IMG/VR virus record: IMGVR_UViG_3300025012_000169
Location: 1 to 42,570 of that record
Source: a virus
Reading direction: 5' to 3' (one strand)
DNA length: 42,570 bases
Part shown: positions 9,042-42,570 of the stretch, piece after piece
Layout: each line of letters opens with the position of its first letter
How positions within the stretch are numbered: the first letter of the stretch is position 1
Program-made: the position numbers and the translations under genes
The notes under the pieces: model-generated
The model's input: the letters and a program-made list of their open reading frames with translations, nothing else
Databases searched by the model: none
What the model was told of the DNA's origin: nothing

Positions 9042-10476
9042 CCCCTGGAACCCGACCGGCGAATCGTTCCTCCGCGCCGGCGACGTCGTTCTGCGCGGCC
9101 GCTCGCTGAATCAGCAGTTCGAGCGCGCGCTGGCGCAGGAGCGGATCCAGCGTGAGCAGCAGGACCTCCTGCGGCGCCGGCTCGAGAGCGAGGAGGCGGC
9201 CCGCTTCATCACGCCCGAGCAGCTCCCGCCGGAGTACCGGACGCCGGGCATGGGGCGGATCCCGACGGCGACGTTCCCGCTCTGGAGCGAGAGCATCAAG
9301 ACGGGGCGGGAGCGGGAGCGCGCGGGCGCCGCGGCCACCGAGATCGAGCGCTTCGGCACGACGCGCCGCGCAGTCCCGTTCGGCGACGTCGAGGGCGGCG
9401 CGTTCACGGGCCAGCCGACGCCGGGCGTGACGTCGATCGAGGAGTCGACGGACCCGCGCCTCCAGTTCCTCGCGCGGATGGTCCGGACGGGCACGGTGAA
9501 GCCTGAGGCGGCGATCGGGGACCTCATGAAGCCGGAAGAGGCGATGGCGCTCCCCGCCGGCTCGAAACTCGTCGGCAAGCGGACGGGCCGGGAGCTGGCC
9601 TCGGGCGGGCCGAAGCTCAAGGTCGAGCTGCGCCCCGGCAAGGGCGACACCTTCGCGGTCATCACGGACGATGCCGGCAACATCCTCGGCGAGCCGAAAC
9701 CGCTCGGAATCGGCGCGACGGAGAGCAAGTCGGCCCTCACGCGCGAGGACATCGCCGGGGCCCTGGCCGAAGCCGGTTGGACGCCCACCATGCCGGGGTA
9801 CCGGAAGGCGTACCTGGACGTGGCCCGGCAGGTGAGCGTGCCGGGCGTGGGCGCCTTCGGGGCCGGCGCCTTTGTGGTCCCCGCGCCGAAGGCCGGGGCG
9901 CCGTCGGCGCCGAGGGCCGGCGGGCCGGGCGCGCCGAAGCCGCGCATCGAAGCGCCGCTCTCGCCGGAGGAGGCTGGGGCGCTCGGCGTGCCGTTCGGGA
10001 CGCCGCGCAGCGCGGTGAAGGGCACGACGCCCCTGACCGCGGCGCAACGCACGAAGATGGACGCGCAGGCCGGCGTGCTCGGGATCATCGACACGATGGA
10101 GCGCGACCTCAAGGGCGTCTGGGCGCCGTCGGGCCCGCTCGAGCGCTTCAAGGCGATCCCCTCGCAGCTCTGGAAGATCTACGGGCAAGCGGACCCACAA
10201 CTCACGGCGCTCCACAGCCGCTTGGAGGGCACGCTGGCGCTGATCGTCCGGGCGCTCGGTGAAGTCGGCACGCTGAATGAGGGCGACATTAAGCGCGCCC
10301 GGGCGCTGCAGCCGACGTTCGCGCCGATCCCGGACACCGCGGAGGTCATCGTCGAGAAGATCCAGGGCCTGCGCGACCTCGTGCGTGAGGTTGCCTCGCG
10401 GACGGGGACGCGCCCGGAGGCGATGAAGGGCGGCGGGAAACCCTCCGGCGGCTGGACGATCGAGGTCACGAAGTAG
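9034..10476 (+). CDS. Putative internal virion / ejection protein 2
   Basis: This 480-residue protein has a helical charged N-terminus (SLNQQFERALAQERIQREQQ), a mixed middle, a Pro/Ala/Gly linker near residues 285-325 and a compact C-terminal helical domain (residues 340-460) with a Trp-Lys-Ile-Tyr-Gly segment and ALGEVGTLNEGDIKRARAL. That last region resembles the C-terminal helical domain of several phage internal virion proteins. No transmembrane segment and no catalytic motif is seen. It is immediately followed by the third member of the set. Confidence 0.5.
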   Translation: MADPWNPTGESFLRAGDVVLRGRSLNQQFERALAQERIQREQQDLLRRRLESEEAARFITPEQLPPEYRTPGMGRIPTATFPLWSESIKTGRERERAGAAATEIERFGTTRRAVPFGDVEGGAFTGQPTPGVTSIEESTDPRLQFLARMVRTGTVKPEAAIGDLMKPEEAMALPAGSKLVGKRTGRELASGGPKLKVELRPGKGDTFAVITDDAGNILGEPKPLGIGATESKSALTREDIAGALAEAGWTPTMPGYRKAYLDVARQVSVPGVGAFGAGAFVVPAPKAGAPSAPRAGGPGAPKPRIEAPLSPEEAGALGVPFGTPRSAVKGTTPLTAAQRTKMDAQAGVLGIIDTMERDLKGVWAPSGPLERFKAIPSQLWKIYGQADPQLTALHSRLEGTLALIVRALGEVGTLNEGDIKRARALQPTFAPIPDTAEVIVEKIQGLRDLVREVASRTGTRPEAMKGGGKPSGGWTIEVTK

Positions 10477-28790: not shown

Positions 28791-30091
28791 CGCCCACCGA
28801 CCCCGTGCTCACACCCCTCGGCGACAGTCTGTGGGTCGTCTGGCCGGAGCGCGGGACCCTCGAGTTCGCCCGCGTCGCCGAGCACAGCGACAGCCTCTCG
28901 GCCGAGGTCACCGTGGTCAGCGTGGCGGCCGGCGAGCTGTCGTGGTCGCGGCTGAACCTCGCCAGCGCGCAGAGCCGGGCGGGGCTGGCGCGGCTGCTCG
29001 AGGAGCGGGACCCGGGGCAGGACTGGCGGGCGATGCTCGACCGCTCGTGTCGGCTGGTCGCCAGGCACCTCAGGGCGGGGGAGCCGGCCGTGGCGCTCGT
29101 GCCCGCCCCGCCGCCGGCCGCCCACTGGCTCGTCGAGGGCCTGGTCCCGGCCGGGCAACTCTCCGTCGTGTTCGGCGACGGGGGCGTGGGCAAGAGCTAC
29201 CTCGCGCTCGCGCTGGCCCTGGCCGGGCTGCTGGCGCGCCCCCTCAGCGCGCGCTGGCGGGTGGCCCCGCTTCGCCGCGTCCTCTACCTCGACTGGGAGA
29301 GCGGGCGCGACGAGCAACAGGCGCGGCTCTGGCGGTTGACCCGGGGCCTCGGCTCGACGCCCGTGGACGGCGCGCTGCTCCACCGGACGATGCGGCGGCC
29401 CCTGCTCGACGATCTGCCGGCGCTCCGCGCCGAGGTCGCGCGCGAGCACGTGGACCTCGTGATCGCGGACAGCCTGGCCCCCGCGTGCGGCCCCGAGCCC
29501 GAGACGGCGTCGGCCGTCGTGCCCGCCCTCCTGGGTCTCCGGAGCCTCGCCGTGACCGTGCTCATCCTCGCGCACGTCAGCAAGCAGACCGCCGACGTCC
29601 GCGCCCCAGGCCGCCCCTTCGGGAGCGTGTTCGTCCAGAACCTGGCTCGGAGCACGATCGAGGCCCGGCGGAGCGAGGCCACGGGCGAGGGCGAGCCCGG
29701 GTACACGCTCACGCTCTACCACCGCAAGGCCAACGAGGGGGAGATGCTCAGGCCGTCGGCGCTCGACTTCCGCTGGACCGATCCAGGCACCCTGACGGTC
29801 CGGGCCGGGCAGGCGGAGATGGGCTGGGCGAGCCTGCCGCAACAGGTGCTCGATGCGCTTCGGACCCCGAAGACCGCCCGTCAACTGGCCGAAGAACTGG
29901 AGGTCACGCCCGCGTCTGCCAAGAAGACGCTGCAGCGCCTCGAAAAGCGGGACAACGTGATCCGGCTTTCCGGGACAGACGGCGGACGAGGCAACGAACA
30001 GCTGTGGGCGCGCACAGATAGAAAGCGGGACATGGACGGTGCCCAACCGGGACACACCAGGGAGCCTGGCGAAGATGATCCACCGTTCTAG
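28787..30091 (+). CDS. RepA/DnaB-like RecA-fold ATPase (AAA_25), probable replication protein
   Basis: This 434-residue protein has an N-terminal domain of about 110 residues, then a RecA core: Walker A at 130-137 (GDGGVGKS), DWES at 169-172, Walker B VIADS with Asp228, and a later ILAHVSKQ sensor-like motif (about residues 262-269). The C-terminal 100 residues contain a winged-helix-like segment (TARQLAEELEVTPASAKKTLQ) and a disordered tail. RepA-type helicases of this shape start plasmid and phage replication. The last 150 bases carry CGGGACA boxes, which suggests that its origin lies within or next to the gene. Confidence 0.75.
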   Translation: MTPTDPVLTPLGDSLWVVWPERGTLEFARVAEHSDSLSAEVTVVSVAAGELSWSRLNLASAQSRAGLARLLEERDPGQDWRAMLDRSCRLVARHLRAGEPAVALVPAPPPAAHWLVEGLVPAGQLSVVFGDGGVGKSYLALALALAGLLARPLSARWRVAPLRRVLYLDWESGRDEQQARLWRLTRGLGSTPVDGALLHRTMRRPLLDDLPALRAEVAREHVDLVIADSLAPACGPEPETASAVVPALLGLRSLAVTVLILAHVSKQTADVRAPGRPFGSVFVQNLARSTIEARRSEATGEGEPGYTLTLYHRKANEGEMLRPSALDFRWTDPGTLTVRAGQAEMGWASLPQQVLDALRTPKTARQLAEELEVTPASAKKTLQRLEKRDNVIRLSGTDGGRGNEQLWARTDRKRDMDGAQPGHTREPGEDDPPF

Positions 30092-30139
30092 CCGTCCGTT
30101 CCAAACCGGGACACCCTATAGAGAGAGAAATCTGTCCCG
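29948..30139 (+). repeat. Array of CGGGACA boxes (candidate iterons)
   Basis: CGGGACA occurs in direct orientation at 29948, 29971, 30026, 30048 and 30107, and inverted (TGTCCCG) at 30133-30139. Spacings are 23, 55, 22 and 59 bases, mostly near whole helical turns. Two of the copies share the longer core AACCGGGACAC. The boxes span the 3' end of the replication ATPase gene and the gap after it, as in origins or autoregulated operators. Confidence 0.65.
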
Positions 30140-30145
30140 GTTTGG
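30101..30145. promoter_or_regulatory. 13-base perfect inverted repeat around an AT-rich loop
   Basis: CCAAACCGGGACA (30101-30113) and TGTCCCGGTTTGG (30133-30145) pair perfectly around 19 bases that include TATAGAGAGAGAAA. It lies in the gap between the ATPase and the MerR-like gene. It could be an operator with a -10 element (TATAGA, 30117) between the arms, a replication element, or a stem-loop without a T tract. Confidence 0.65.
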
Positions 30146-30273
30146 TTCCCCCCAGACCCCCTTCCAACACCAGAACGCCAGGACATCGCCCCTCCGGGCG
30201 CTTCCTTCAGGCGCCCTTCGAGGCGAGATCAGACCGACCCCAGAGCCACCCCGCAGGGAAAGAGAGAGACCCG
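30146..30273. other. Non-coding gap upstream of the MerR-like gene
   Basis: No gene is seen. A GC hairpin GGGCGC (30196-30201) / GCGCCC (30211-30216) with a nine-base loop is present, followed by TTCG rather than a T run, so it is at best a weak terminator. A purine-rich GGGAAAGAGAGAG stretch just before ATG 30274 can serve as ribosome-binding site. Confidence 0.4.
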
Positions 30274-30687
30274 ATGATCGACAGCCTCCAGCCCCTGTGG
30301 TCCACCCCGGTCGTCCTGCGCCTGCTCGGCATCTCGGCGCGCTGGCTCCGCATCCTGGGCACGCGCGCCGGTGTCCCCACACGCTACGCGCGCGTCAGCT
30401 CGCACCCGCGCAAGGTCAGGCTGTGGACCAGCGATGAGATCCGGCGCGTGCAGGCCGTGCGCTACGGCGTCGATGTCAAGACGTTTATGTCTGGCATCTC
30501 ATACCGGCATTCCCAAGTGGGAATAGCGCCTTTGGAGGCCGCGACCGGGGTTACACTGCCTCCCGGCGATGCCCAGCCCGTTGACGAACGTGGCGGAATT
30601 CGACCGGCGTCTCGCCCAGCACGGGCTCGAGGCCGGAGCCCCGCTCGTCCCAGCGCTCGACGCCGAGGCGCTCCGCCAGCTCGCTGA
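30274..30687 (+). CDS. MerR/excisionase-like HTH DNA-binding protein
   Basis: This 137-residue protein has an N-terminal helix-turn-helix (VVLRLLGISARWLRILG), then a wing-like segment and RLWTSDEIRRVQAVR, as in MerR and HTH_17 proteins. Residues beyond about 98 are Arg/Pro/Ala-rich and lie opposite the start of the next gene, so the 119-base overlap may be a shadow extension rather than functional protein. The gene is preceded by the inverted repeat at 30101-30145, a possible target. A perfect-arm repeat ATTCCC-AAGT-GGGAAT (30509-30524) lies inside it. Confidence 0.55.
   Translation: MIDSLQPLWSTPVVLRLLGISARWLRILGTRAGVPTRYARVSSHPRKVRLWTSDEIRRVQAVRYGVDVKTFMSGISYRHSQVGIAPLEAATGVTLPPGDAQPVDERGGIRPASRPARARGRSPARPSARRRGAPPAR
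30509..30524. promoter_or_regulatory. Small inverted repeat ATTCCC-N4-GGGAAT
   Basis: Six-base perfect arms with a four-base centre, in a locally AT-richer stretch 45 bases before the next gene's ATG (30569). It may be an operator for that gene. No convincing -35/-10 pair surrounds it. Confidence 0.4.
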
Positions 30688-30970
30688 CGGCGACGGCGAG
30701 CGCGCTTGGTCGCGGCTGCGCGGCCCGCTCGTACAACAGCTGCTCCGCGTCGCCAACCTCCCGGATTCCCTCGCGAACGAGGTCCACTACGGTCTCAAGG
30801 CCAAGCACCAGGCGATCGACGCGCTGTTGCGCCGCGCGCTGCCTGAGACCACGCGGCTCGAGGTCACCACCCCGCGCCTGAGTGATACAGAGCTGGTCGA
30901 CACGCTCGCGGTGCTCGGGCTGGTCGTGCCGGCGGCGCTGCCGGCAGCTGAGGGGGAGGGCGAGGAGTGA
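30569..30970 (+). CDS. Terminase small-subunit candidate
   Basis: This 133-residue protein is helical and acidic at the end, with LPDSLANEVHYGLKAKHQAI and LSDTELVDTLAVLGLV. It lies just upstream of the HNH gene and the terminase ATPase gene. Small-terminase identity is inferred from position, size and helical composition; I do not see a definite family motif. It overlaps the HTH frame by 119 bases. Confidence 0.45.
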   Translation: MPSPLTNVAEFDRRLAQHGLEAGAPLVPALDAEALRQLADGDGERAWSRLRGPLVQQLLRVANLPDSLANEVHYGLKAKHQAIDALLRRALPETTRLEVTTPRLSDTELVDTLAVLGLVVPAALPAAEGEGEE

Positions 30971-30989
30971 CGCGGTGCGCCCGAACGAG

Positions 30990-31007
30990 TCGTAATAGCT
31001 ATTACGA
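30990..31007. promoter_or_regulatory. 18-base perfect palindrome, probable operator
   Basis: TCGTAATAGCTATTACGA is a perfect palindrome with no spacer, in an AT-rich gap, 50 bases upstream of the -35 of the HNH promoter. This is the form of a dimeric repressor or activator site. Confidence 0.7.
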
Positions 31008-31056
31008 GAAGCTGTTTCGGATCATGGCGGATGCGTTGATGAATAGCGACCATCTG

Positions 31057-31085
31057 TTGACACGAGCGCCGATGCGTGTTATCAC
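31057..31085 (+). promoter_or_regulatory. Sigma70-like promoter of the HNH gene
   Basis: A perfect TTGACA (31057-31062), a 17-base spacer and TATCAC (31080-31085). The expected start of transcription is about 31092, the A of the HNH ATG, giving a leaderless transcript. The -10 lies in the loop of a seven-base inverted repeat. Confidence 0.65.
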
Positions 31086-31093
31086 TCACGCAT
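31072..31093. promoter_or_regulatory. Inverted repeat over the HNH -10 and start codon
   Basis: ATGCGTG (31072-31078) and CACGCAT (31087-31093) are perfect seven-base arms around TTATCACT. A protein bound here would block the promoter, making it a candidate operator distinct from the upstream palindrome. Confidence 0.6.
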
Positions 31094-31559
31094 GCGAATC
31101 ACCATTCTCCCTCGACCGCTCCAGGTCAGGATCAGGGCGCCGAGACTCTCCGGGTGCTGGCGCTGGGCAGGATCGGTTACACCGGCAGGCTACGCGCGAT
31201 TCAATGGCCGCTACGCGCATCGCGTCGCGTGGGTGCACGTCAACGGCCAGATCCCCGAGCGCATGGTGCTCCATCACGCCTGCGGCACTCGTGAGTGCGT
31301 GCGTCCCGATCACCTCCGGCTGGTCGAGCGCGGCCCCCACATCGCCGAACACGCCGCCAGCCGACCGCGTCTCAGCCCGGAGGAACGACGAGAGCGCACC
31401 AGGCAGTCGCAACGGGCGTGGCAGGCCCGCCAACGCCTGCGCGGCGGCTGTCGGCGCTGTGTGGCCCCGGCCCTGCCAGGACGAACCTTCTGCGCCCCCC
31501 ACCTTGCCGCGGAGCGCGCAGCCAAACGCCTCCGCGCTGCCGCCTCCCGCCTGCCCTGA
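31092..31559 (+). CDS. HNH endonuclease (homing-type) with a C-terminal zinc knuckle
   Basis: This 155-residue protein has the phage HNH_3 pattern: CWRWAGSVTPAGYARFNG, then AHRVAWVHVNGQIPERMVLHHACGT (split here at the HH), then CVRPDHLRLVE. The His-Asn-His metal finger is thus in residues 40-80. The C-terminal part carries CRRC and a later C-x2-H (residues 124-144), a second possible zinc site. It has its own promoter. Such nucleases next to terminase genes are common and may act in genome packaging or as mobile homing genes. Confidence 0.75.
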   Translation: MRITILPRPLQVRIRAPRLSGCWRWAGSVTPAGYARFNGRYAHRVAWVHVNGQIPERMVLHHACGTRECVRPDHLRLVERGPHIAEHAASRPRLSPEERRERTRQSQRAWQARQRLRGGCRRCVAPALPGRTFCAPHLAAERAAKRLRAAASRLP

Positions 31560-31623
31560 CCGCCTCGCCTCCGCCCTCGACGCCTGCCGGCTGCACGCGG
31601 GCGGCTGGCCCTGGCGCGCCGCG

Positions 31624-31902
31624 GTGCGCCTGGCCGGCCGAGCGGCCGACGTCGCGCCGACCTGCGGCCACGCGGGCCCGGCCTGCGTGCTCTGCGGGGC
31701 GTGCCGGGCGTGCCACGCGCGCGCGGCCGCGGCGCCGAACGGGGGCCCCATGGGCCTGGGGCGGGTGCACCGGCCGGTCCTCTCCTCCGACACACCACGT
31801 CCAGGAATCGCCCCCCCGCCCGTGGTCGCCGTCCCCGAAATCCCCCCCCTGCGGGCCGTGGCGCCTCCGGGTGCCCCGATCGCCCCCGAGGTCAGGGCCT
31901 GA
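31624..31902 (+). CDS. Cys/His-rich, Pro-rich protein before the terminase (start uncertain)
   Basis: From GTG 31624 the product has CGHAGPACVLCGACRACHAR, a dense Cys/His cluster, followed by a Pro/Val/Ala-rich disordered tail. The frame reads well from about 31558 (ALDACRLHAGGWPWRAAVRL), before any good start codon, so translation may begin inside the HNH gene or at a rare start. The TGA overlaps the terminase ATG by one base (TGATG). Confidence 0.45.
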   Translation: MRLAGRAADVAPTCGHAGPACVLCGACRACHARAAAAPNGGPMGLGRVHRPVLSSDTPRPGIAPPPVVAVPEIPPLRAVAPPGAPIAPEVRA

Positions 31903-32744
31903 TGGCCCCCCCGGCGGCGCGCGTCGCGCCCAGAGCCTCTCAGGCGGCGCCCCGCCTCACCAAGACCGAGCGCGCGGCTCTGGCGCAGCGCCTCTGGGAC
32001 GGGATCTGCGCCTCGCCCTACGTGTTCCTCGGGCTCGCGAAGACCCTGGACGAGCACGCGCCGGAGGGGGAGCCGGCGGTGCGGCCCTTTCCGCTCTGCG
32101 CGGTCTGCGCGCAGGACGAGGCGGCCAACGAGCGGATCGCCCTGCGGGGGGGGCTCTCGATCTGCGCGGCGCACGGGCGGCGGCACAAGCCGTACTTCCG
32201 GGTGCTCGGGGAGGCGTGGCGGCGGGCGCCGTGGGAGTCCGAGGGGATCGTCTTGCTCGAGAAGTCGCGGCAGATGATCTGCTCGTGGTTCTTCGTCGAG
32301 CTGCTCGGGTGGCAGGTGATGGTGCGGCCGGGGACGCGCAACGCCATCCAGAGCCTGAACTACGACAAGGCGTGCGAGCTGGTCGAGCGGTTCGCGCTGA
32401 GCTACCAGGCGCTGCCGGCCGAGGCGCAGCGGTACGGGCCGCTCTCGGACAGTCCCAAGGCCCGGGCGCGGGCGATTCGGGGGAAGGTGGAGTTCCCGGA
32501 GATCCACGCGGAGCTGGTGGCGCTGCCGAACGGGCCGAACCAGACGCGGATGTACACGTTCACCTCGCTGCTGATGGACGAGTGCCAGCATTGGGAGCCG
32601 GACGAGGACTTCGAGGACAGCTACGCGGCGGGGCTGGCGACGATCAAGGGGGACGTGAACCGGACGGGGCGGCTGGTGGCGCTGTCGACGGTGCACCACG
32701 CGGGGAGCTTCCACCATCGGCTCTGCCGGGGGCTGGCGGCATGA
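31902..32744 (+). CDS. Terminase large subunit, ATPase half (split gene)
   Basis: This 280-residue protein has the TerL opening AKTLDEHAPEG with RPFP, a Walker A variant EKSRQMICSW (Lys121), a Walker B LLMDE (Asp226-Glu227) and the coupling motif VALST followed by HHAGSFHHRL. It stops there, with no nuclease domain. A Cys pair insertion (CAVC, CAAH) lies near residues 66-90. The missing nuclease domain is encoded 2.4 kb downstream at 35186-36061. The motor would power DNA packaging through the portal. It overlaps the next gene by four bases. Confidence 0.85.
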   Translation: MAPPAARVAPRASQAAPRLTKTERAALAQRLWDGICASPYVFLGLAKTLDEHAPEGEPAVRPFPLCAVCAQDEAANERIALRGGLSICAAHGRRHKPYFRVLGEAWRRAPWESEGIVLLEKSRQMICSWFFVELLGWQVMVRPGTRNAIQSLNYDKACELVERFALSYQALPAEAQRYGPLSDSPKARARAIRGKVEFPEIHAELVALPNGPNQTRMYTFTSLLMDECQHWEPDEDFEDSYAAGLATIKGDVNRTGRLVALSTVHHAGSFHHRLCRGLAA

Positions 32745-33220
32745 CGGCGCGGGATCGGATCGACCTGGTCCTCGTCGCCGCGACGCTGGCGGCGCTCGCG
32801 CTCTGGGGGTCCGGGCTCTACGGCCAGTGGCGCGCCGGCCGGGACGTCGCCGGGGCGCAGGCCCTGGCCGACGCCTACGCCGTCCATCTCGACCACGGCC
32901 GGAGCCACGCCGTCGAGTGGGCGGTCTGCGGCGCGCGGGCGCAGGGCGCGCGGGAGGCGAAGGACGCCGAGGCCGAGCGGGGCGCCGTGCAGTGCTGGCA
33001 GGCGGCGCGCGGGCGGGCGATGGACGAGTGGCTCCCGCAGGTCTACGGGCGCCTGCGGGCCGACTTCGGCCGGGCGGTCGCGGAGTCCTGGAAGCTCGGG
33101 GCGGACCTGTCGGACCTCGGGACCTCGGAGCGGCGCGAGCACCAGGCGCGCCTGCTGGCGCTCGATCGGCTGCTGGGGCCGATGCGGGACGGGACGCTGC
33201 GGCGGCGGGCCGCGCGGTGA
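32741..33220 (+). CDS. N-terminally membrane-anchored helical protein
   Basis: This 159-residue protein has one transmembrane helix (residues about 8-26, LVLVAATLAALALWGSG) followed by a long charged helical domain with Cys near 63 and 85, likely periplasmic. It resembles inner-membrane spanins or other anchored coiled-coil proteins in layout only. It is the first gene of the insert that separates the terminase halves and overlaps the ATPase stop (ATGA). Confidence 0.5.
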   Translation: MTARDRIDLVLVAATLAALALWGSGLYGQWRAGRDVAGAQALADAYAVHLDHGRSHAVEWAVCGARAQGAREAKDAEAERGAVQCWQAARGRAMDEWLPQVYGRLRADFGRAVAESWKLGADLSDLGTSERREHQARLLALDRLLGPMRDGTLRRRAAR

Positions 33221-33264
33221 TCACCACGGACCAGCCGGCCGGGCCGGCGAAGAAGGAGCGCGCG

Positions 33265-34011
33265 ATGAACGAGCGGAGACTCTGGCCGAGTGTCCTGGCG
33301 GTGGCCCTGATGGCGGCGGCGGCGCTCTGGGTCGCGTGGCCGGCCGAGGCGCAGTGGGCCGAGATCACGACCAACGCCGTGAAACCGGCCGACACCGCGA
33401 AAGCGATCACGATCGGCCCGTCGGCGACCTCGGGCGTGCAGGTGACGACGGCCGGCAAGCTGAACCAGCTGGTCGCCGACACGGACGGCTGGGCGTTCAT
33501 CCCGGCCTATCAGGGCTGTATCGCGAACACGATCACCGTCTCCGGCGTGCAGGGCGCGAAGACCCTCGTCGCGTCCCGGCAGGGGCTGAACCAGTGGAGC
33601 CTGCACTGGTCCTCGGGGCCCTCGCTCGCGCCGTTCAAGATCGTCTGTTCGCTCAACTCGTGGCTGCAGCGGCTCGGGGTGCAGAAGGGCTACGCGCTCA
33701 AGACCGTCTCGATCGTGCACCAGTTCTCCGCGGCCCCCGGGTCCACCTTCACGGAATGGGGGCGCCTGGCCTCCTGCACCTACGCCAACAACACCGCCAT
33801 CACGTGCGGGGAGAACCTGGTGGCGTCGCCGACGATGCCGAGCGCGTCGGACCCGGAGCCCCAGGTGACGACCGCGACGCTGACGACCGCGGCCTACATC
33901 GCGTCGCAAGTCGATCTGAACCTCGAGTTCGGCGTCGAGATCCCGCAGGGCGGCAACGGGATCTACAACCTCTACGGCGTCTTCGTCACCTTCAACCGGC
34001 TGGATCACTAG
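33265..34011 (+). CDS. Secreted beta-rich protein with signal peptide
   Basis: This 248-residue protein from ATG 33265 (AAGGAG seven bases upstream) has a typical Sec signal: MNERR, a hydrophobic core, and a cleavage site after AEA before QWAEI. The mature part is beta-rich with four Cys. It ends VDLNLEFGVEIPQGGNG and a FVTFNRLDH strand, which looks like a virion or fibre-type domain. GTG 33217 is an in-frame alternative but would bury the signal. Export of a structural-looking protein is unusual for a phage. Confidence 0.6.
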   Translation: MNERRLWPSVLAVALMAAAALWVAWPAEAQWAEITTNAVKPADTAKAITIGPSATSGVQVTTAGKLNQLVADTDGWAFIPAYQGCIANTITVSGVQGAKTLVASRQGLNQWSLHWSSGPSLAPFKIVCSLNSWLQRLGVQKGYALKTVSIVHQFSAAPGSTFTEWGRLASCTYANNTAITCGENLVASPTMPSASDPEPQVTTATLTTAAYIASQVDLNLEFGVEIPQGGNGIYNLYGVFVTFNRLDH

Positions 34012-34019
34012 GGCGACGC

Positions 34020-35189
34020 ATGACGCGGCCGATGCAGGCACTCGGCGGCCTCGCGCTCGCGGGGCTCGCCGTCTGCCTGCCGTGGCTGACCGCGTGGTCG
34101 GCCGCGCTCTGGCTCTCCTCGTCGCGGGCGATCCTCGAAACGCCGCTGACGGCGCTCGCGGTCGCCGCCTTCGTGCTCGTCGGGGCGGCCGTCGCGATCC
34201 ACGAACCCTGGCTCGGCGCCTTCGTCGCCTACGCGGGGCTGTCGCTCTTCCGCATCGGCTGGCCGGGCATGGCCGAGGCCGTGCTCCCGATCGCGCTCGG
34301 CGCGGTGACGATCGTCGCGGTCGGCGCGCTGCCCGCCCGCGCGGCGTTCGCCGGGGCCGCCGGGGCCTGGACGCTCCGGTGGCGCGGGGCGGCGCTCGGG
34401 GCCGCGGTCACGCTGCCCGCCGGGACGCTCCGGTGGCGACGCTGGGCGCTCGCCGCCCTCGTGGCCGGCGGCGTGGCGCAAACGCTCTACGCGCTCGCGC
34501 AGCTGGCCGGCCTGGACCCGCTCTGGCTCGGCTGGCGCGTCTCCCGCCGGGCGCTGCTGCTCCAGGGCACCTTCGGCCAGCACGGGCTCTACGGCGCCTA
34601 TCTGGCGCTCCTCGCCCCGCTGGCTCCACTCTGGCTCGTGCCGGTCTTCCTCGTCGGCCTGCTGCTCTCCTACTCGACGGTCGCCGTGGGCGCCGCCGCG
34701 GTCGGCCTCCTCCTGCGCTGGCGCACGCGCACCTGGGGCGCCTGGGCGCTCGCCCTCGTCACGCTCGCGCTCGTCTGGTGGGCGCGTGGGGGCGTGGCGG
34801 CCGAGGCGTGGACGAATCGCCTGGACATCGCGCGCCAGGGGCTCGCGGGCTGGCTCTGGGCCTCGCCGTGGCTCGGGCTCGGCCCTGCGGCGTGGGCCTC
34901 GGTCGCCGACCCGATGCAACTCGTTCGCGTGGCGCCGCGCGGGGCGCGCGAGATCTTCGTCCAGGCCCACAACGAGTACGTGCAGGTCGCGTTCGAGTAC
35001 GGGGTGGTGGGCGTCGGGCTGCTCGCCGGCTTCTGCTGGGCGCACCGCCGGGCCCTCCAGGGCCGCTTCGGCGGGGCGCTCGTGAGCCTCGCGCTCGTGT
35101 CGCTCGCGTGGTTCCCGTTCCGCGTGGCGACGGTCGCGTGGACGGCCGTGGTGATCGTCGGGCTGGCGCTCGCGGAGGAGGCGGCGTGA
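34020..35189 (+). CDS. O-antigen ligase/polymerase-like membrane protein (Wzy_C/WaaL-like), copy 1
   Basis: This 389-residue polytopic membrane protein has about ten hydrophobic segments. It carries the O-antigen ligase pattern: a large periplasmic loop with LQGTFGQHGLYGAYLALLAPL near residues 180-200 and His317-Asn-Glu-Tyr followed by QVAFEYGVVGVGLLAG, the conserved HNEY-x(n)-E-x-G motif. Enzymes of this type transfer or polymerise undecaprenyl-linked glycans at the outer face of the inner membrane. A phage copy could alter O-antigen and thus the receptor. It starts directly upstream of the terminase nuclease half, whose GTG overlaps its stop. Confidence 0.75.
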   Translation: MTRPMQALGGLALAGLAVCLPWLTAWSAALWLSSSRAILETPLTALAVAAFVLVGAAVAIHEPWLGAFVAYAGLSLFRIGWPGMAEAVLPIALGAVTIVAVGALPARAAFAGAAGAWTLRWRGAALGAAVTLPAGTLRWRRWALAALVAGGVAQTLYALAQLAGLDPLWLGWRVSRRALLLQGTFGQHGLYGAYLALLAPLAPLWLVPVFLVGLLLSYSTVAVGAAAVGLLLRWRTRTWGAWALALVTLALVWWARGGVAAEAWTNRLDIARQGLAGWLWASPWLGLGPAAWASVADPMQLVRVAPRGAREIFVQAHNEYVQVAFEYGVVGVGLLAGFCWAHRRALQGRFGGALVSLALVSLAWFPFRVATVAWTAVVIVGLALAEEAA

Positions 35190-36061
35190 AGGGCGTGCGC
35201 GTGATTTCGCTCCACTACAGCGCCGACGCGGAAAAGGCGGCGCCGGAGTGGAAAGAGCGCGCGAAAGTCGGGTATCCGCCGACCAAGTGGGAGCGGGAGA
35301 TGGAGCTGAACGCCCACGCCGGCGCCCTGACGGCCGTCTTCCGCCTCGCCTACCGCGCGGACACGCACCTGCGCGCGCTCGAGCCCGATCCGGCCCTGCC
35401 GATGCGCCACGGCTGGGACTTCGGCAAGGGCTTTCCGGCCTGCGTGTGGTTTCAGCGCACGCGCGACAACGGCCTGCGCGTCTTCGGCTCCCTGGTCGGC
35501 GAGGCGGTGCAGCTCCGGAGCTTCGTCGAGCGCACGCTCGGCTTCACGCTCGAGCGCTTCGGGGATCTCTGGCCGAACCGGCGCGACTACTGCGACCCGG
35601 CGGGCAACCAGGACAAGGACGACGGCCTGAAGTCCGTCGAGGTGCTCCGGAGCTTCGGCTGGAGCCCGAAATGGGTCGGCGGGCTGGTGCAGCCGGGCCT
35701 CGAGGCGCTCGAGCGGCTCATGACCCTGACGCTGCCGAGCGGCGACCCGGCGTTCCTCGTCGACCCACGGTGGAACCGGGTGCTGATCGAGGCGCTCGAG
35801 GGCCGGTACTATCGCAAGGCGTCGGGCGAGATCGCGCGCGAGCACCCCTGGATCGACGCGATGGACGCGCTCCGCTACGGTGTGATGTGCACGAAGACGC
35901 CTGACCGCCCGCGCCAACGTCCGGGGCGCCCGTTTCCGGTCAACGAGGTCTCCGGCTACGGCCTGGCGACGCGCCCGGACACGGCGGGCCACGTCGCGGG
36001 CGGCCCAGGGGCGTGGGACGAGGCGATGCGGGGCGCGGGCTACCTGGTGAACGGGCGATGA
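35186..36061 (+). CDS. Terminase large subunit, nuclease half (split gene)
   Basis: This 291-residue protein starts KGVRVISLHYSADAEKAAPEW, the segment that follows the ATPase domain in single-chain TerL proteins. It contains the RNase H-type acidic set: Asp78 in GWDFGKGF, Asp137 in DPAGNQDKDD and Asp224/Asp227 in HPWIDAMDALRYG. It would cut concatemers during packaging, working in trans with the ATPase half. Its GTG overlaps the membrane protein's stop and its TGA overlaps the second membrane protein's ATG. Little or nothing of the standard TerL seems to be missing between halves. Confidence 0.85.
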   Translation: MKGVRVISLHYSADAEKAAPEWKERAKVGYPPTKWEREMELNAHAGALTAVFRLAYRADTHLRALEPDPALPMRHGWDFGKGFPACVWFQRTRDNGLRVFGSLVGEAVQLRSFVERTLGFTLERFGDLWPNRRDYCDPAGNQDKDDGLKSVEVLRSFGWSPKWVGGLVQPGLEALERLMTLTLPSGDPAFLVDPRWNRVLIEALEGRYYRKASGEIAREHPWIDAMDALRYGVMCTKTPDRPRQRPGRPFPVNEVSGYGLATRPDTAGHVAGGPGAWDEAMRGAGYLVNGR

Positions 36062-37128
36062 GGGCGCTCGGGCTCGCGGTCGGCCTCCTCGCGGCGCTGC
36101 TGCCCTGGACGGCGGCGGTCCGAGTGGCGCCGGTCGCCACGCCGGGCGCCGCGATCCTCGAGACGCCCCTCTACGTCTTCGTGGCCGCGCTCCTGGCCCT
36201 CGGGGGCGCCGCCCTGACGCGCGGGGACCGCTGGCTCGGCCTCCTCGTGCTCTGGGGGGCGCTCGGGGCGGTCGCGGCGCGCGACTGGATCGCGCTGGCG
36301 ACCGCGCTGTGGCTCGCGGGCGGGGCGGCCGTCCTGGTGGCGGCGCGGGGCGCGGTCGAGCGTGGCGCGGGGCCGATCCTGCGCGTCCTGCTCGTCGCCA
36401 CGGCCGCCGGGGAGGCGCTCTATGCCCTCGGGCAGGCGTTCCGGTGGGATCCCCTCTGGTGGGGCTCGGAGGCGCCGCCCTACGTCGTCTGGCACGGCAC
36501 GCTCGGCAATCCGAAGTACCTCGGGGCGTTCCTGGCCCTGCTGGCGCCCCTGGCCCCGCTGGCCGTCCTGCCGATCCTGCTCGTCGGCGTCGTCCTGAGC
36601 CGCTCCTGGCTCGCCGCGGCGGCCGTGATCGTCGGGCTGGCGCTCCGGCCGTCCGGATCGCGCCGGGCGCGGGCCGGCGCGCTCGCGCTCGGCGTCCTGG
36701 GGGCGCTCGGCGCCGTCTGGGCGCGCGGGTGGAGCCCGGACAGCGCGCTGAACCGGCTGGCGGTCTGGCGGCTCGCGTGGGACGACCTCTGGGCCGTCCC
36801 CGTGACGCTCCTGACGGGCTACGGGCCCGGGGCCTGGCCCCAGGCGATCACGGCGCGCCAGATCGTCGCCGCAGGCCAGGGCTGGCCCCCGGAACTCTTT
36901 GCCGCCGCCCACAGCGACCTCGTGCGGCTCGGGTTCGAGGGCGGGGCGCTCGCGCTCGCGGTCCTCGGGCTCTGGATCCTCGCGCACCGAGCGGCCTGGT
37001 GGCGCTCGCCCTGGCGCGGGGCGGCCGCGGCCCTCGCCGTGCTGGTGGTGGGGCTGCACCCGATGCATCTGGCCTCGATCGCCGTGCCGGCCTGCGTGGT
37101 GCTCGGCGCGGCCACGGCGCGCACCTGA
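36058..37128 (+). CDS. O-antigen ligase/polymerase-like membrane protein, copy 2
   Basis: This 356-residue polytopic protein is a clear paralogue of 34020-35189: both open with an Ala/Leu-rich first helix and AILETPL, share a GT-(F/L)-G-x-x-x-YLGAFLALLAPL-type loop and the downstream motif. Here the motif is His285-Ser-Asp followed by LVRLGFEGGALAL, so the Asn-Glu-Tyr of copy 1 is replaced. That may mean a different substrate or lost activity. Copies 1 and 2 flank the terminase nuclease gene. Confidence 0.7.
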   Translation: MRALGLAVGLLAALLPWTAAVRVAPVATPGAAILETPLYVFVAALLALGGAALTRGDRWLGLLVLWGALGAVAARDWIALATALWLAGGAAVLVAARGAVERGAGPILRVLLVATAAGEALYALGQAFRWDPLWWGSEAPPYVVWHGTLGNPKYLGAFLALLAPLAPLAVLPILLVGVVLSRSWLAAAAVIVGLALRPSGSRRARAGALALGVLGALGAVWARGWSPDSALNRLAVWRLAWDDLWAVPVTLLTGYGPGAWPQAITARQIVAAGQGWPPELFAAAHSDLVRLGFEGGALALAVLGLWILAHRAAWWRSPWRGAAAALAVLVVGLHPMHLASIAVPACVVLGAATART

Positions 37129-37150
37129 TGAGCACACGGAGGACACGACG

Positions 37151-37522
37151 ATGAGGCGATGGACGGCGATTCTGGGGCTCCTGGCGGCGGTGGCGGCGCC
37201 GGCCGTGGTCGTGGCGGAGGACGTGGTCCTCCCGGGCGGCGTGCTGATGCAGATCTTCTCCCCGTCGCTGACCCCGGCGGCGCATGCAGCGGGCGGCCCG
37301 CTGAACACCGAGACCTCCTTCGAGGAGACCTACACCGTGAGCGGCCTGCTCCCGGGCGGGGCGGTCTTCGTCTCGCCGCCGTCCCAGACGGCCGCCTGCC
37401 CGATGAGCGGGGCGCGCGTGTCGGCGCTCAACACGCTGGCGCTGACCTACACGAAGCAGACGACGGCGGCGTGCACGCCCGCGAGCGGCACCTACCGCGT
37501 GACGAACATCCTGAAGCCATGA
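37151..37522 (+). CDS. Small secreted protein with signal peptide
   Basis: This 123-residue protein has a signal peptide (MRRWTAILGLLAAVAAPAVVVAED, 24 residues shown as RR, hydrophobic core, AVVVAE cleavage region) and a beta-rich Thr/Ser/Gly mature part with two to three Cys. GAGGACACGACG precedes ATG 37151. The family is unknown. It overlaps the next gene by four bases. Confidence 0.55.
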   Translation: MRRWTAILGLLAAVAAPAVVVAEDVVLPGGVLMQIFSPSLTPAAHAAGGPLNTETSFEETYTVSGLLPGGAVFVSPPSQTAACPMSGARVSALNTLALTYTKQTTAACTPASGTYRVTNILKP

Positions 37523-37701
37523 CGCGCGGGCTCGATCTCCTGCTCGCGTTCCTGCTCGGCGCCGCCCTGGCTGGCGCGGGGGCGGTCTGGGCCGACGCCC
37601 CGCGCTGGGGGGCGCAGTCCGGGCTCGTGATGTGGACGCACGCGACGAGCGGACCCGTGGAGGCGAGTACGACGAACCCCGTGCCCGTCCAGGGCTACTG
37701 A
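37519..37701 (+). CDS. Truncated exported paralogue of the following gene
   Basis: This 60-residue protein has a signal peptide (hydrophobic residues 6-22) and a mature start ADAPRWGAQSGLVMWTHATS ending NPVPVQGY. The neighbouring protein begins ADAPRWSALSTLLMWTKA and continues with DPLPVTISG, so this is a short copy of its N-terminus. The stop overlaps the next ATG. It may be a functional secreted peptide or a remnant of a duplication. Confidence 0.6.
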   Translation: MTRGLDLLLAFLLGAALAGAGAVWADAPRWGAQSGLVMWTHATSGPVEASTTNPVPVQGY

Positions 37702-39053
37702 TGCGCCGGCGTCTCGCGCTCCGCGGTCTCGCGGTCCTGCTGATCCTCGGTCTGGGGGGGCTCGCCACCGCCCGGGCCGACGCCCCGCGCTGGTCCGCCC
37801 TCTCGACGCTGCTCATGTGGACCAAGGCGGATCCGACGGGGCCGACCGAGGTGACGGCGGCGGACCCGCTGCCGGTCACCATCAGCGGGGACGCGACCCT
37901 CGACACGCTGACGATCGACGAGAAGATCCTCCTCCCCGCCGGCACGACGGCGGCGCCGAGTCTTCAGTGGCCCGCGACGGGGCTGACGCAGATCTCCACC
38001 GCCGTCCTCGGCCTGGTGAATGGTGAGGTCTCGCAGGAATTTCGTGTGTACGGCACGGCGACGGGAGGCGAGTATCTCGCGCTTCAGGGCGCCGCGGCCT
38101 CCCAGACGGTGCGGTCGTCGGTGGGCAATCTCAACCTCGGCTATGCGACGGCGACCCCTCTGGTCGTGTCGACGACGGGCACTATCTACGTCGGCGAGGT
38201 CGGCAACGACAACACGAACGGCACGGGCAATCCCGACGGCCGACTGCAAATCATGGTCGACACGAACGCGGTCGTCAACCCATTCAACATTCAGAATTTC
38301 CGCTCCACGGCCGGGGCGGGCATCGGGATGTCGTTCGGGCTCGGCGCGACGGACGACCTCGTCTATCCCTACTACGTCCTCCGCCTCACCCACACGAACC
38401 AATGGACCTCGACGGCCAGCTCCCGCAAGGGCATCATGCAGATCGGGGTGCCCAACGGGGCCAACCCGGCGTATTACCTTGCGCTCGACAGCGAGCAGGC
38501 GATGGTCAACGCCACCGCCGACCTCTGGCTCGATGCGCCGAAGGTCACGGCGGGCTCGGGAACGGGCGTCACGGTCAATGCCCCGGGCTCCGCCCGCTCC
38601 GTCGTCTACAAGGTCACCGTCCTCTCCACCAACTGCGTCGCCGCCGCGACGACGTGCGACCTCACCATCGCCACGCTCCCCGCCAAGGCGTTCCTCAAGG
38701 CCGTCATCGCGGACCTGACGACGACCTACGCCTGCACCGCCGTCTGCACGACCGCGACGCTCTCGGGCACGCTCGGCACGAGCGCGGGCGGCACGCAACT
38801 GCTGGCCTCGATGGACCTCGACGCCGCGGCCGCGCAGTTCGGCGACGCGGATGCGGAACTCGGGGCCACCATGAACGCGGCCGCCCGGAGCGCCAACGGC
38901 GCGCTGTTCAACGGCGTGCTGATGTCGTGGTCGGGCACGACGACGGTGACCTACCGGATCACGAGCGGCACCGGCAACCTCGGCGACGGCGCGGCGACGA
39001 ATCTGAGTCAGGGCACCATCGTCTTTTACTTGGTCACGGAGGTCTTCCCGTAG
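37701..39053 (+). CDS. Large exported fibre-like protein with signal peptide
   Basis: This 450-residue protein has a signal peptide (RRR, hydrophobic core LAVLLILGLGGLA, cleavage after ARA before DAPRW). The rest is Thr/Ser/Gly/Asn-rich beta sequence of fibre or spike type, with ILLPAGTTAAPSLQWP, a middle beta domain, and a C-terminal domain resembling head-fibre or tail proteins (VTYRITSGTGNL, then QGTIVFYLVTEVFP). Four Cys in CVAAATTC and CTAVC suggest disulphides after export. Its TAG overlaps the portal GTG. A structural-looking protein with a Sec signal suggests display on the host surface or assembly outside the cytoplasm. Confidence 0.6.
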   Translation: MRRRLALRGLAVLLILGLGGLATARADAPRWSALSTLLMWTKADPTGPTEVTAADPLPVTISGDATLDTLTIDEKILLPAGTTAAPSLQWPATGLTQISTAVLGLVNGEVSQEFRVYGTATGGEYLALQGAAASQTVRSSVGNLNLGYATATPLVVSTTGTIYVGEVGNDNTNGTGNPDGRLQIMVDTNAVVNPFNIQNFRSTAGAGIGMSFGLGATDDLVYPYYVLRLTHTNQWTSTASSRKGIMQIGVPNGANPAYYLALDSEQAMVNATADLWLDAPKVTAGSGTGVTVNAPGSARSVVYKVTVLSTNCVAAATTCDLTIATLPAKAFLKAVIADLTTTYACTAVCTTATLSGTLGTSAGGTQLLASMDLDAAAAQFGDADAELGATMNAAARSANGALFNGVLMSWSGTTTVTYRITSGTGNLGDGAATNLSQGTIVFYLVTEVFP

Positions 39054-41146
39054 TGGAGATCCGCCGCGCGAGCCCGATCCCGCTCGACAGCCCCAAGGCG
39101 TTTTACACGAACCACGCCAGGGACGCCGAGACGGCCCGGCGCGCCGTGAAGCTCGCGCTGCCGATGCTGACGCACGTCCGCCGGAACCGCCAGACGATCG
39201 ACAAGAAGGCCCTGCGCCGCTACAACCAGTGGGCGCTCGTCACGGACGACCGCTTCTACGTCGGGCGCGCGAACACCTACATCCCCGCCGTGCGCCGGGG
39301 CGTCGAGCGCCTCGTGAGCAGCACGATCCGCGAGACGTTCCCCTCGGACGAGTGGTGGGACCTGCAGGCGACCGCCCCGGAGTTCGAGAAGAACCTCGAC
39401 GGCCAGCGGGCCCTCCTGCGCCAGCAGCTCCGCCAGATGGCCGTCAAGCGCCTGGCCCGGCCGACGTACCGGCAGGCCTTCATTTGCGGCCTCACCCCGG
39501 TGCGGGTCGGGTGGAAGACGGTCGAGCGCACGGAGAGCGCGATCGGCCCGGGTCCGGACGGGAAGGGCTTCGGCGTCACGCAGCGCCGCCGCGTGCTCTA
39601 CAACGGTCCCGAGTTCGAGCCCGTGGACTTCTTCAGCTTCGGCGTCTACCCGATGACGGGGCTGCGCCTGGAGGACGCGCTGCTCGTGTACGAGGACGCC
39701 GTGGTGAGCCTCGACGAGTTGCAGGCCGACCGTGACAACTACACGAACCTCGCGCGGGCGAAGTCCGCGGCGGGCAGCGGGACCAGCGGGAGCGAGGCCC
39801 TGCAGCAGCGCCAGCAGCGCCTCCGCCAGCTCGGGATCACCGAGGACGAGCTGACCGACGGCCAGTTCGCCTTCATCACGCACTGCTACCTGTCGGCCTT
39901 CGATCTCAAGGACCGCTTCCGCCTCGGGCCCGAACCCGTGATCCTGACGCTCGCGTGGGAGGAGGTGCCGATCCGCCTGCAGCGCAACGCCTACGGCCGG
40001 GCGCCCTATCTCGAGGTGCGCGACAGCGAGATGATCGGGGAGCACTGGCCGCACGCGCGCACGGAGGCGACCGATCGGCTGCAGATCCACCTGAACGACG
40101 TGTCGAATCAGGACGCGGACGCCTCGAGCTTCGCCAACAACCCGATCGTGCTGGTGGACCCCAACGTCGTCGAGGACTACCAGGCGATCGCCATCTACCC
40201 GGGCGCCAAGGTGCCGGCGCCGAAAGACGCCGTGAGCTTCGACCGCCCGCCCGAGGCGGCGTACAGCCAGAAGGACAAGCTCGCCTTCCTGCACCAGCTC
40301 ATCAACGAGAACCTGGGCTCGCCGACCGCCGCGAGCGGCAGCCCGGCCGCCTCCGCGCAGCCCCGCGGCGCCCGGACCTTCGGCGGGATGCAGATGCTCC
40401 AGATGCTCGCCGGCTCCGAAGCCAAGGAGTTCGTCGAGTTCCAGGAGGAGAACTTCTGGGAGCCGCTCCTGGGGTGGATGGCGAAGATGAACGCCCTGTT
40501 CCTCTCCGACGAGCAGACGCTCCGCATGGCGGGCAGCCGGGGCGCGGCCATCGTGGTGAACCGCGAGACCTTCGCGGGCGACTACGCCTACGAGTGGCTC
40601 GGCACCTCGACGATGCAGAATCAGACCGTGCGCTCGGCGCAGATGCTGGTCTTCATGAACGTGCTGCGGGGGCTCCAGCTCCCGCCCGGGCAGTCGGTCA
40701 ACGTCGCGTACATCCTCAAGACGTGGTGGCGCTCGCAGGGCCTGAAGGACGCCGACCGCGTGATCCTCGACGCGACGCCCGAGTCCGTGCCGGCCGACCT
40801 CGAGCAGCAGCTCGTGGCGATGGGGCGCGCGATTCAGGTCTCCCCGCAGGACAACGACGCCGAGCACATCGCGAGCCACGCCCGCGCCCGCGGCGCGCTG
40901 CCGCCCGACAGCCCCGAGCACCAGACGCTGCTCCAGCACGAGCAGGCGCACGCCACGCAGCTGCTCGTCAAGCAGCAGGCGGCGCTCCTCCAGCAGTCTG
41001 CGGCGATGCCCGGGGGCGGCACGAACGGGGGGCCCGCCCCGGCGGGGGCGAAGGCCGGCATGAAGCCGCGGATGGGTGCGGACTCCGGCATGGGACCGGC
41101 GCGCGCGATGCTGGCCGCCCCCGGGGGCGCGCCGGGAGGCCCCTGA
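39053..41146 (+). CDS. Portal protein
   Basis: This 697-residue protein has the size, gene position (between terminase and scaffold) and sequence pattern of a short-tail phage portal: RRYNQWALVTDDRFYVGRANTY (read as ALVTDD, then YVGRAN), EPVDFFSFGVYP near residues 190-200, a stem region with LQIHLNDVSNQDA, and a helical crown with Gln-rich and Ala-rich C-terminal segments. The last 60 residues are Gly/Pro/Met-rich and disordered. It forms the twelve-subunit ring through which DNA is pumped. GTG 39053 overlaps the preceding TAG. Confidence 0.82.
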   Translation: MEIRRASPIPLDSPKAFYTNHARDAETARRAVKLALPMLTHVRRNRQTIDKKALRRYNQWALVTDDRFYVGRANTYIPAVRRGVERLVSSTIRETFPSDEWWDLQATAPEFEKNLDGQRALLRQQLRQMAVKRLARPTYRQAFICGLTPVRVGWKTVERTESAIGPGPDGKGFGVTQRRRVLYNGPEFEPVDFFSFGVYPMTGLRLEDALLVYEDAVVSLDELQADRDNYTNLARAKSAAGSGTSGSEALQQRQQRLRQLGITEDELTDGQFAFITHCYLSAFDLKDRFRLGPEPVILTLAWEEVPIRLQRNAYGRAPYLEVRDSEMIGEHWPHARTEATDRLQIHLNDVSNQDADASSFANNPIVLVDPNVVEDYQAIAIYPGAKVPAPKDAVSFDRPPEAAYSQKDKLAFLHQLINENLGSPTAASGSPAASAQPRGARTFGGMQMLQMLAGSEAKEFVEFQEENFWEPLLGWMAKMNALFLSDEQTLRMAGSRGAAIVVNRETFAGDYAYEWLGTSTMQNQTVRSAQMLVFMNVLRGLQLPPGQSVNVAYILKTWWRSQGLKDADRVILDATPESVPADLEQQLVAMGRAIQVSPQDNDAEHIASHARARGALPPDSPEHQTLLQHEQAHATQLLVKQQAALLQQSAAMPGGGTNGGPAPAGAKAGMKPRMGADSGMGPARAMLAAPGGAPGGP

Positions 41147-41412
41147 TGCCGCTGAAGAACGTCCGCTACCGCGTCACGACGACGGGCACGGGTCAGAAGG
41201 TTCGCCTCGCCGTCCGCGGCGGCAGCGCCGCGAAGAAGACAGGCACCGTCGTCGAGGCGAAGGGCCCGACGGGGACGGTCCACACGCCGGCCGAGTTCGC
41301 CGCCGACCGCGCGAAGAAGAAGCCGATGAAGGCGCCGGCGATGACCGCGAGGATGGCGCGGATGCAGCGCATCAAGGACTTCGAGGACGCGCATGGCGAT
41401 GATGCCCTCTAG
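41146..41412 (+). CDS. Small basic protein after the portal
   Basis: An 88-residue Lys/Thr/Ala-rich protein with a beta start (VRYRVTTTGTGQKVRLAVRG) and a helical end DFEDAHGDDAL. The C-terminal His-Gly-Asp codons overlap the next gene's CATGGCGA start. The TGATG overlap couples it to the portal. The function is unknown; a head-assembly factor is likely. Confidence 0.45.
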   Translation: MPLKNVRYRVTTTGTGQKVRLAVRGGSAAKKTGTVVEAKGPTGTVHTPAEFAADRAKKKPMKAPAMTARMARMQRIKDFEDAHGDDAL

Positions 41413-41650
41413 CCCGAACACGAAGTCGAAGCCGATGATTTATCTGTCGTGGCCCAAGAAGGGTCTGAAGACGTCCGGCGATATGAAGGCGCTCAGGATC
41501 GGCAAGTCGTGCGTGATCCGGCTCAAGGGCACGGTGAAGGGGTTGTCCGAGAGAGAGGACGGGCGTTCGCTCGATATCGAGCCGAGCGAGATCAGCATCC
41601 GGAATCACGTCGAAGCGTTCGAGGACGAACATGGCGACACGACGCTCTAA
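41393..41650 (+). CDS. Small protein with the same C-terminal motif as its neighbour
   Basis: An 85-residue protein, beta-rich in the middle (SCVIRLKGTVKGLSERED), ending AFEDEHGDTTL, the same motif as the upstream protein's FEDAHGDDAL. It overlaps the previous gene by 20 bases and the next by 20. No family is recognised. Confidence 0.45.
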   Translation: MAMMPSSPNTKSKPMIYLSWPKKGLKTSGDMKALRIGKSCVIRLKGTVKGLSEREDGRSLDIEPSEISIRNHVEAFEDEHGDTTL

Positions 41651-42044
41651 GACGCGCCTCGACGTGCTCCGCGGGACGCCCCCGGGCGAGCTGACGGCGC
41701 TCGACCTGGACCTCGTGATCGCGGAGGCCGATCGGAAGATCGCGCTGATGCAGGCTCTGGCCGAGTCGGACGCCTGGCGCCTGCTCTGCCGCGTCCGCGA
41801 GCAGCGCAAGAAGAATCTCGGCCGGCAGCTCGAGGGGCTCGTCAAGCGCCTCGCGCAGCCGCTCGAGGGCCAGCCCCCGGTGACGACCGACCAGCTGACC
41901 TACCTCCGGGGGCGTCAAGACGAGAATACCGAGCTGCTGAGCTTCCCGGCCCGAGCGCGTCTGCTCTGGCAGCAGGAGCGGGAGCAGCTGGACCAGTTTC
42001 GCCAGCAGCGGGCGTCATCGCTGCATGCGCCGCCGAGGCGTTAA
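41631..42044 (+). CDS. Helical protein before the scaffold
   Basis: A 137-residue protein, mostly charged helix (LDLDLVIAEADRKIALMQ, LLCRVREQRKKNLGRQLE, WQQEREQLDQFRQQRA), consistent with coiled coil. Its place between portal and scaffold suggests a head-assembly or scaffold accessory role. It ends 17 bases before the scaffold ATG. Confidence 0.5.
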   Translation: MATRRSKTRLDVLRGTPPGELTALDLDLVIAEADRKIALMQALAESDAWRLLCRVREQRKKNLGRQLEGLVKRLAQPLEGQPPVTTDQLTYLRGRQDENTELLSFPARARLLWQQEREQLDQFRQQRASSLHAPPRR

Positions 42045-42061: not shown

Positions 42062-42570
42062 ATGGACAGGAACAGCGACTGGCACGAGGTGACCGACCGG
42101 GCGGCGTGGCTGCTCGCGCGAGGGCGTGGGCCCATCGCGGGCGGATCGGACGACGACCCGGCCGCGGGCACCGAGGGGACGGAGACCGCCGATGACCTGG
42201 CGGGCGCCGCCACCGACGGCGAGCCCGGTGACGAAGGCGCGGAGGGGGCGGAGGGGGCCGAGGGCGCGGCGCAGGGGGAGGAGACCGAGCCGGGGGCGGA
42301 AGGCGACGGACCCGATGGGGAGCCAGCGGACGGGCTTGACAGCCGGCCGCGCTCGCGGGGCCAGCGGCGCTACCAGGCGCTGGCCAACGCCAACCGGGAG
42401 CTGCGGCAGACGATCGAGGCGCTCGATCGCCGGCTGAAGGGGCTGGAGCCGAGGCCGGGGAGCGACGAGGCGCTGCCGGGCGAGTTCAAGGAGCTGGACC
42501 AGCATCTCGGGGGCTACGTCGGGCACCGGCTCGGCGGCGTCACGAAGCTGATCGAGGCCCAGAAGCAGCA
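42062..42570 (+). CDS. Scaffold-like protein, N-terminal part (continues at position 2)
   Basis: From ATG 42062 (GGGAGGACGT upstream) the protein opens with a short helix, then about 70 residues that are very acidic and Gly-rich (Glu/Asp/Gly/Ala low complexity), then a basic helix RRYQALANANRELRQTIEAL. The frame is open to the end of the window and continues at position 2 to the stop at 538, 302 residues in all. Acidic disordered plus helical is the usual scaffold composition. Confidence 0.6.
   Translation, partial: MDRNSDWHEVTDRAAWLLARGRGPIAGGSDDDPAAGTEGTETADDLAGAATDGEPGDEGAEGAEGAEGAAQGEETEPGAEGDGPDGEPADGLDSRPRSRGQRRYQALANANRELRQTIEALDRRLKGLEPRPGSDEALPGEFKELDQHLGGYVGHRLGGVTKLIEAQKQ
42433..42570. 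repeat. Terminal direct repeat, right copy
   Basis: Matches 1-138 with a single difference (T at 42444, G at 12). Confidence 0.85.

Follow-up and report, generated by a model that had tools for sequence, protein, structure and literature searches.

Among uncultivated phages, a gene encoding a protein with a signal peptide (SP) is repeatedly found directly upstream of a gene encoding a membrane ligase of the Wzy_C type, and this recurring pair suggests an undescribed phage route to export, and perhaps to sugar-coat, particle proteins. One such pair is present in the virus DNA analysed here (the window, that is the whole stretch of 42,570 nucleotides), the ends of which share a 138-base terminal repeat with one mismatch (1-138 and 42433-42570), so that its genome is probably complete or circular, with a closed length of about 42.4 kb. 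Nearly all its genes are transcribed in the same direction and, from 31.9 kb, they follow in the order given below up to the portal gene, after which the head genes resume at the window start:

31902-32744, + strand: TerL-N, separately encoded ATPase half of the large terminase (ATPase HMM, motifs)
32741-33220, + strand: anchored protein, 159 aa, with an N-terminal transmembrane segment and a periplasmic-type domain
33265-34011, + strand: exp1, SP protein, 248 aa (SP rule), directly upstream of lig1
34020-35189, + strand: lig1, multi-pass Wzy_C ligase (PF04932; motif AHNEYVQVAFEYG)
35186-36061, + strand: TerL-C, separately encoded nuclease half of the large terminase (phrog_2, nuclease motifs)
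36058-37128, + strand: lig2, multi-pass Wzy_C ligase, paralogue of lig1 (PF04932)
37151-37522, + strand: exp2, SP protein, 123 aa (SP reading)
37519-37701, + strand: exp3, short SP protein, 60 aa (SP rule), paralogue of the start of exp4
37701-39053, + strand: exp4, SP protein, 450 aa, Ala/Thr/Ser-rich, fibre/decoration-like by appearance
39053-41146, + strand: portal protein (phrog_1216, E 3.2e-13; SU10_portal match slightly under the cut-off; 55% to L048, the closest relative)
553-1908, + strand: major capsid protein (phrog_1357), its N-terminus extended by 39 residues that are hydrophobic and signal-like

A preliminary description of this DNA had placed an anchored protein, four SP proteins and two glycan-ligase-like proteins between 32741 and 39053, and all of them are indeed located there. 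It had also held these genes to be coupled throughout by overlapping stops and starts, which is borne out at six junctions (ATGA/GTGA at 32741, 35186, 36058 and 37519; one-base overlaps at 37701 and 39053) but not between exp1 and lig1 (8 nt), between lig2 and exp2 (22 nt) or between the anchored gene and exp1, which starts 44 nt further on unless an alternative upstream start at 33217 is used. SPs were called by rule and not with SignalP; on this basis they are found in 4 of the 8 genes of the region versus 4 of the 54 elsewhere (Fisher p = 0.007), the anchored protein passing the rule and exp2 failing it solely on account of a long hydrophobic stretch. Profile searches returned no family match for the anchored protein, and sequence searches returned no relatives of this protein or of exp2-exp4 outside near-identical contigs. 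The exp3 protein and the start of exp4 share 56% over 34 aa, none of exp1-exp4 matches the Phage_cement families, and the mature exported proteins contain 17-27% Ser/Thr, no exceptional content marking acceptor sites. The GC3 of the cassette genes equals that of the portal and terminase genes, leaving a recent foreign origin of the cargo unsupported by base composition. HNH-endonuclease-like ORFs were observed upstream of the terminase ATPase gene in the window (31092-31559) and, antisense, between nuclease and portal in L048. As our gene caller favours antisense ORFs where GC content is very high (the window, L134 and L154), these contigs were read by hand; most of the loci compared are metagenomic fragments.

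Both ligases belong to the Wzy_C superfamily, with scores of 32.4 (lig1) and 35.4 bits (lig2) against PF04932 in a genome search, for a curated cut-off of 31.7; hmmscan with default settings on the whole proteins missed them or left them just below this cut-off. They share 34% identity, and they possess 7-8 transmembrane stretches and a loop motif, AH[NS]xxxxxxFExG, conserved over 13 phage ligases. An AF2 model of lig1 built on 13 sequences reached a pLDDT of 72.7 and a pTM of 0.74 (a model from two sequences only, with a pLDDT of 42.8, was unusable), its best PDB match being FtsW with a non-significant E value of 0.14. All the phage ligases examined were Wzy_C, a family that does not separate O-oligosaccharyltransferases from WaaL, a distinction which experiment alone can make (PMC3369928). 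Among 50,697 deposited phages, no relatives of lig1, exp4, TerL-N or two other phage ligases were found.

When IMG/VR was searched with the ligase profile and the ligase motif alone, neighbours playing no part, the ligase gene was directly preceded by a same-strand gene for an SP protein in 12 of the 13 contigs other than the window in which the preceding gene could be read (L134, L137, L138, L139, L143, L144, L145, L146, L152, L154, L155 and L157), against a background SP frequency of 11 in 177 genes (6%). In L156, an SP-like gene lies one gene further up, at -2. L150 and L147 were left out of the 13, their upstream gene being cut by the contig end, and in L152 and L134, where the automatic rule or the caller failed, SP status was judged by eye from the N-terminus. 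With homologous SP proteins counted once, the pairing concerns about six of seven lineages, for which a binomial estimate against the 6% background gives ~4e-7. Wherever neighbours were identified, the pair is located in a head-gene operon, in the company of major head proteins, head proteases and tail-tube/adaptor proteins. Moreover, among 45 records of the terminase group, one other virus has a Wzy_C gene, and there an SP protein directly precedes the ligase between major head and tail adaptor-like proteins. In L144, an otherwise unrelated phage, an exp1 homologue (32% over 179 aa, E 1e-21) lies directly upstream of the ligase; no window genes other than exp1 and the ligases have L144 homologues, and the pair travels together. 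The second window ligase, lig2, is preceded by the terminase nuclease gene, its SP genes coming after it. Several of the upstream proteins resemble cement proteins: PF09956 (Phage_cement_2) is matched above the cut-off in L143 (27.7 bits) and below it in L138 and L139. These three cement-like proteins carry SPs, unlike the described phage cement proteins, which to our knowledge lack them.

A point absent from the preliminary description is that the two terminase pieces flanking the first three cargo genes (anchored protein, exp1 and lig1) are one large terminase divided into an ATPase half and a nuclease half, its domains being in two genes 2.4 kb apart and not in one polypeptide. TerL-N, almost without match by single-sequence search, scores 121 bits (E 1.9e-36, Z=1000) against an ATPase HMM of its relatives from the building of which it was left out, and it has the Walker-type motifs of the family (KSRQMICSW and LLMDE), as expected of an ATPase domain; TerL-C matches the phrog_2 terminase large subunit (E 4.3e-7), is 52% to its L048 counterpart and retains the conserved acidic motifs of an RNase H-type nuclease. 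Among terminase relatives gathered by the nuclease motif HY[ST]ADPEK and a profile search, ATPase and nuclease are separate in about 40 contigs of related uncultivated phages and fused in eight; in the matching deposited phages examined, the gene is fused. The gap between split halves ranges from an overlap up to about 5 kb with varied cargo, and some of the short-gap splits may reflect a frameshift or a sequencing error, an explanation that fails for long gaps and for reversed order. In the reversed contigs the nuclease gene comes first (L045/L069, L076/L077 and L082), and as these contigs cluster in the nuclease tree, the reversal may have occurred once. Split and fused forms intermingle in this tree, supported branches forcing at least 5-6 changes, and L048 is the sister of the window. 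Among uncultivated phages, large terminases encoded by two genes are common and have cargo between their halves (L029-L120). The cargo is an NAD-dependent epimerase-like gene in L055 (3895-4878); in L082, a set of lysis genes (9092-10466; holin-, spanin- and SleB-like) separates the terminase ATPase gene from the portal gene. An ATPase and nuclease pair with no portal gene nearby was also observed in a Chloroflexi MAG (L062, 6214-7858), being either a domesticated remnant or misbinned.

An intron-split terminase was rejected, as no group I or group II intron was matched in Rfam over 30000-42000 and the gap is filled by overlapping genes. The terminase gene of Shewanella phage KASIA is likewise interrupted, but by a spliced group I intron with an HNH endonuclease (PMC8541194), unlike the window, where two separate genes are divided at the domain border with cargo genes between them and no intron found. 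Terminase genes are normally single, so that the arrangement could be taken for a broken gene or an assembly error. This is extremely improbable: the arrangement recurs at 99-100% identity in independent contigs from other samples, and is thus not an assembly error, motifs are kept in both halves, and many relatives are split likewise, some in reversed order; assembly error and pseudogene were discarded on these grounds.

Regarding the cassette as a whole, its co-conservation among relatives did not hold up. Indeed, L048 has no lig2/exp2-4 between nuclease and portal, and L071 has at this site SP fibre-like proteins and no Wzy_C. What survives of the proposed module is the recurrence of exported virion-like and glycan-ligase-like proteins in late head/packaging operons, not as one conserved cassette, and the conserved unit is two genes, the SP protein and the ligase. 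The absence of the lig2/exp2-4 set from L048, the different genes held by other split terminases such as that of L055, and the lysis-like set before the portal in L082 could all be explained if terminase and portal borders simply tolerated insertions, the genes having unrelated accessory or lysis functions. We consider this quite improbable, since the SP-ligase pairing is found in about six mutually unrelated SP-protein lineages and exp1 and its ligase are co-inherited in L144. Holin-/lipoprotein-like genes of the window sit elsewhere, near 16.4-18.5 kb, and the cassette was hence rejected as a lysis module.

Enzymes with related architectures help to frame what the pair might do. In pilin-specific enzymes of the PglL/TfpO type, the gene of the exported acceptor, the pilin, is located next door. 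These O-oligosaccharyltransferases, which pass a lipid-linked glycan to Ser/Thr residues of an exported protein, share the Wzy_C motif with the phage ligases, and their organization is resembled by exp1-lig1, where a Wzy_C enzyme also has an exported neighbour and exp1 would be a candidate acceptor only, in a comparison where the motif cannot tell them from O-antigen ligases. They differ in being bacterial, in having pilin acceptors and in having an activity proven by experiment. We know of no exported virion-like protein adjacent to the O-antigen polymerase of phage D3. This polymerase is likewise a phage-encoded membrane enzyme of the Wzy superfamily and, unlike lig1, a lysogenic conversion gene product (PMC9658991). 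Closer to the present case, phage VarioGold has an SP protein gene (VG_p26) directly upstream of that of an O-antigen ligase (VG_p25) with ten transmembrane segments and a Wzy_C domain, as for exp1-lig1, but its cluster is on the opposite strand and not part of the head operon, its SP protein is not described as cement-like and its authors favour a role in lysogeny (PMC9658991).

The main alternative is surface conversion: lig1 and lig2 would be WaaL- or Wzy-type enzymes that change the polysaccharide on the host surface, either late during infection or while a carrier state lasts, with the SP proteins as separate surface blockers, their joint effect being to prevent superinfection or the readsorption of progeny to debris, as with serotype-converting phage genes. 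The family shared with phage-encoded O-antigen polymerases and ligases, the moron-like interpretation given to the VarioGold cluster of ligase, SP and transmembrane proteins (PMC9658991) and the enrichment of SP proteins around the ligases are all in line with it. However, the genes lie in the head/packaging operon and not in a separately regulated cluster, and several phages pair the ligase with proteins resembling capsid cement, so that we regard surface conversion as possible but somewhat unlikely. Modification of an exported virion-like protein by the neighbouring ligase fits the gene order better than a general remodelling of the envelope.

Signal-like N-termini also extend to other virion proteins. 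The major capsid protein of the window matches phrog_1357 (E 4.9e-40) over residues 40-449, its extension is preceded by a ribosome-binding site of its own (AGGAG, ahead of the ATG), and its homologues in L172, L045, L026 and L027 begin where the 39-residue extension ends. As an independent case, the major head protein of L134 (6022-7158) has a classical signal peptide and a second hydrophobic segment ahead of the head domain. SP-bearing fibre-like proteins are found in L071, L134, L137, L139 and MW202477, and the L134 phage record contains a run of them, one of 1045 residues (L162, 2246-10258). Together, these N-termini suggest that virion proteins are tagged for export more widely, a habit that is only partly explained. 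They could instead tether cement, fibres and even the major capsid protein for assembly or maturation at the inner membrane, the ligase being independent cargo, and the capsid extensions with good ribosome-binding sites, in the window and separately in L134, as well as the fibre-like proteins of L134, L137, L139 and MW202477, are compatible with such tethering. Membrane-associated assembly is nonetheless improbable: most of these N-termini have a classical small-residue cleavage site and not a plain anchor, the four capsid homologues above have no extension, and the repeated pairing with Wzy_C is left unexplained.

The reading that we tentatively prefer is a late module that would export a virion-like protein and use a dedicated Wzy_C ligase to modify either this protein or the envelope. 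Accessory export genes would have been inserted at translationally coupled borders of a late-type operon, the border of the bipartite terminase included, and the two terminase proteins would work together in trans as the packaging motor. The core of the module would be a Sec-exported cement- or fibre-like protein and the adjacent inner-membrane ligase, which most likely acts in an O-oligosaccharyltransferase-like manner, transferring a host lipid-linked glycan onto its exported neighbour in the periplasm; this assignment of the ligase is favoured but unproven. The glycosylated protein may then join progeny particles at lysis or remain on the envelope. In the literature covered, which leaves out most subscription journals, no description was found of a two-gene terminase, of an SP cement protein or SP tail fibre, or of a phage oligosaccharyltransferase.

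Separate ATPase and nuclease genes, sometimes in reversed order, provide a natural test system to ask whether the motor domains of a terminase must be covalently joined. The prevailing view of tailed phages has their particles assembled entirely in the cytoplasm, and the sugar ligases known from phages are encoded by genes for surface conversion in lysogeny. A head operon that encodes, as a recurring pair, a cement- or fibre-like exported protein and a membrane glycan ligase is at odds with both pictures, and the pair predicts a host glycan on the exported phage protein. At its broadest, and as a rather unlikely extension of the module proposed here, a widespread group of uncultivated phages might export some of their particle proteins (cement, fibres and, twice, the major capsid protein) via host secretion and glycosylate them outside the cytoplasm with a dedicated, phage-encoded Wzy_C oligosaccharyltransferase, so that the membrane, or lysis, would be where particles are finished and receive their sugar coat.
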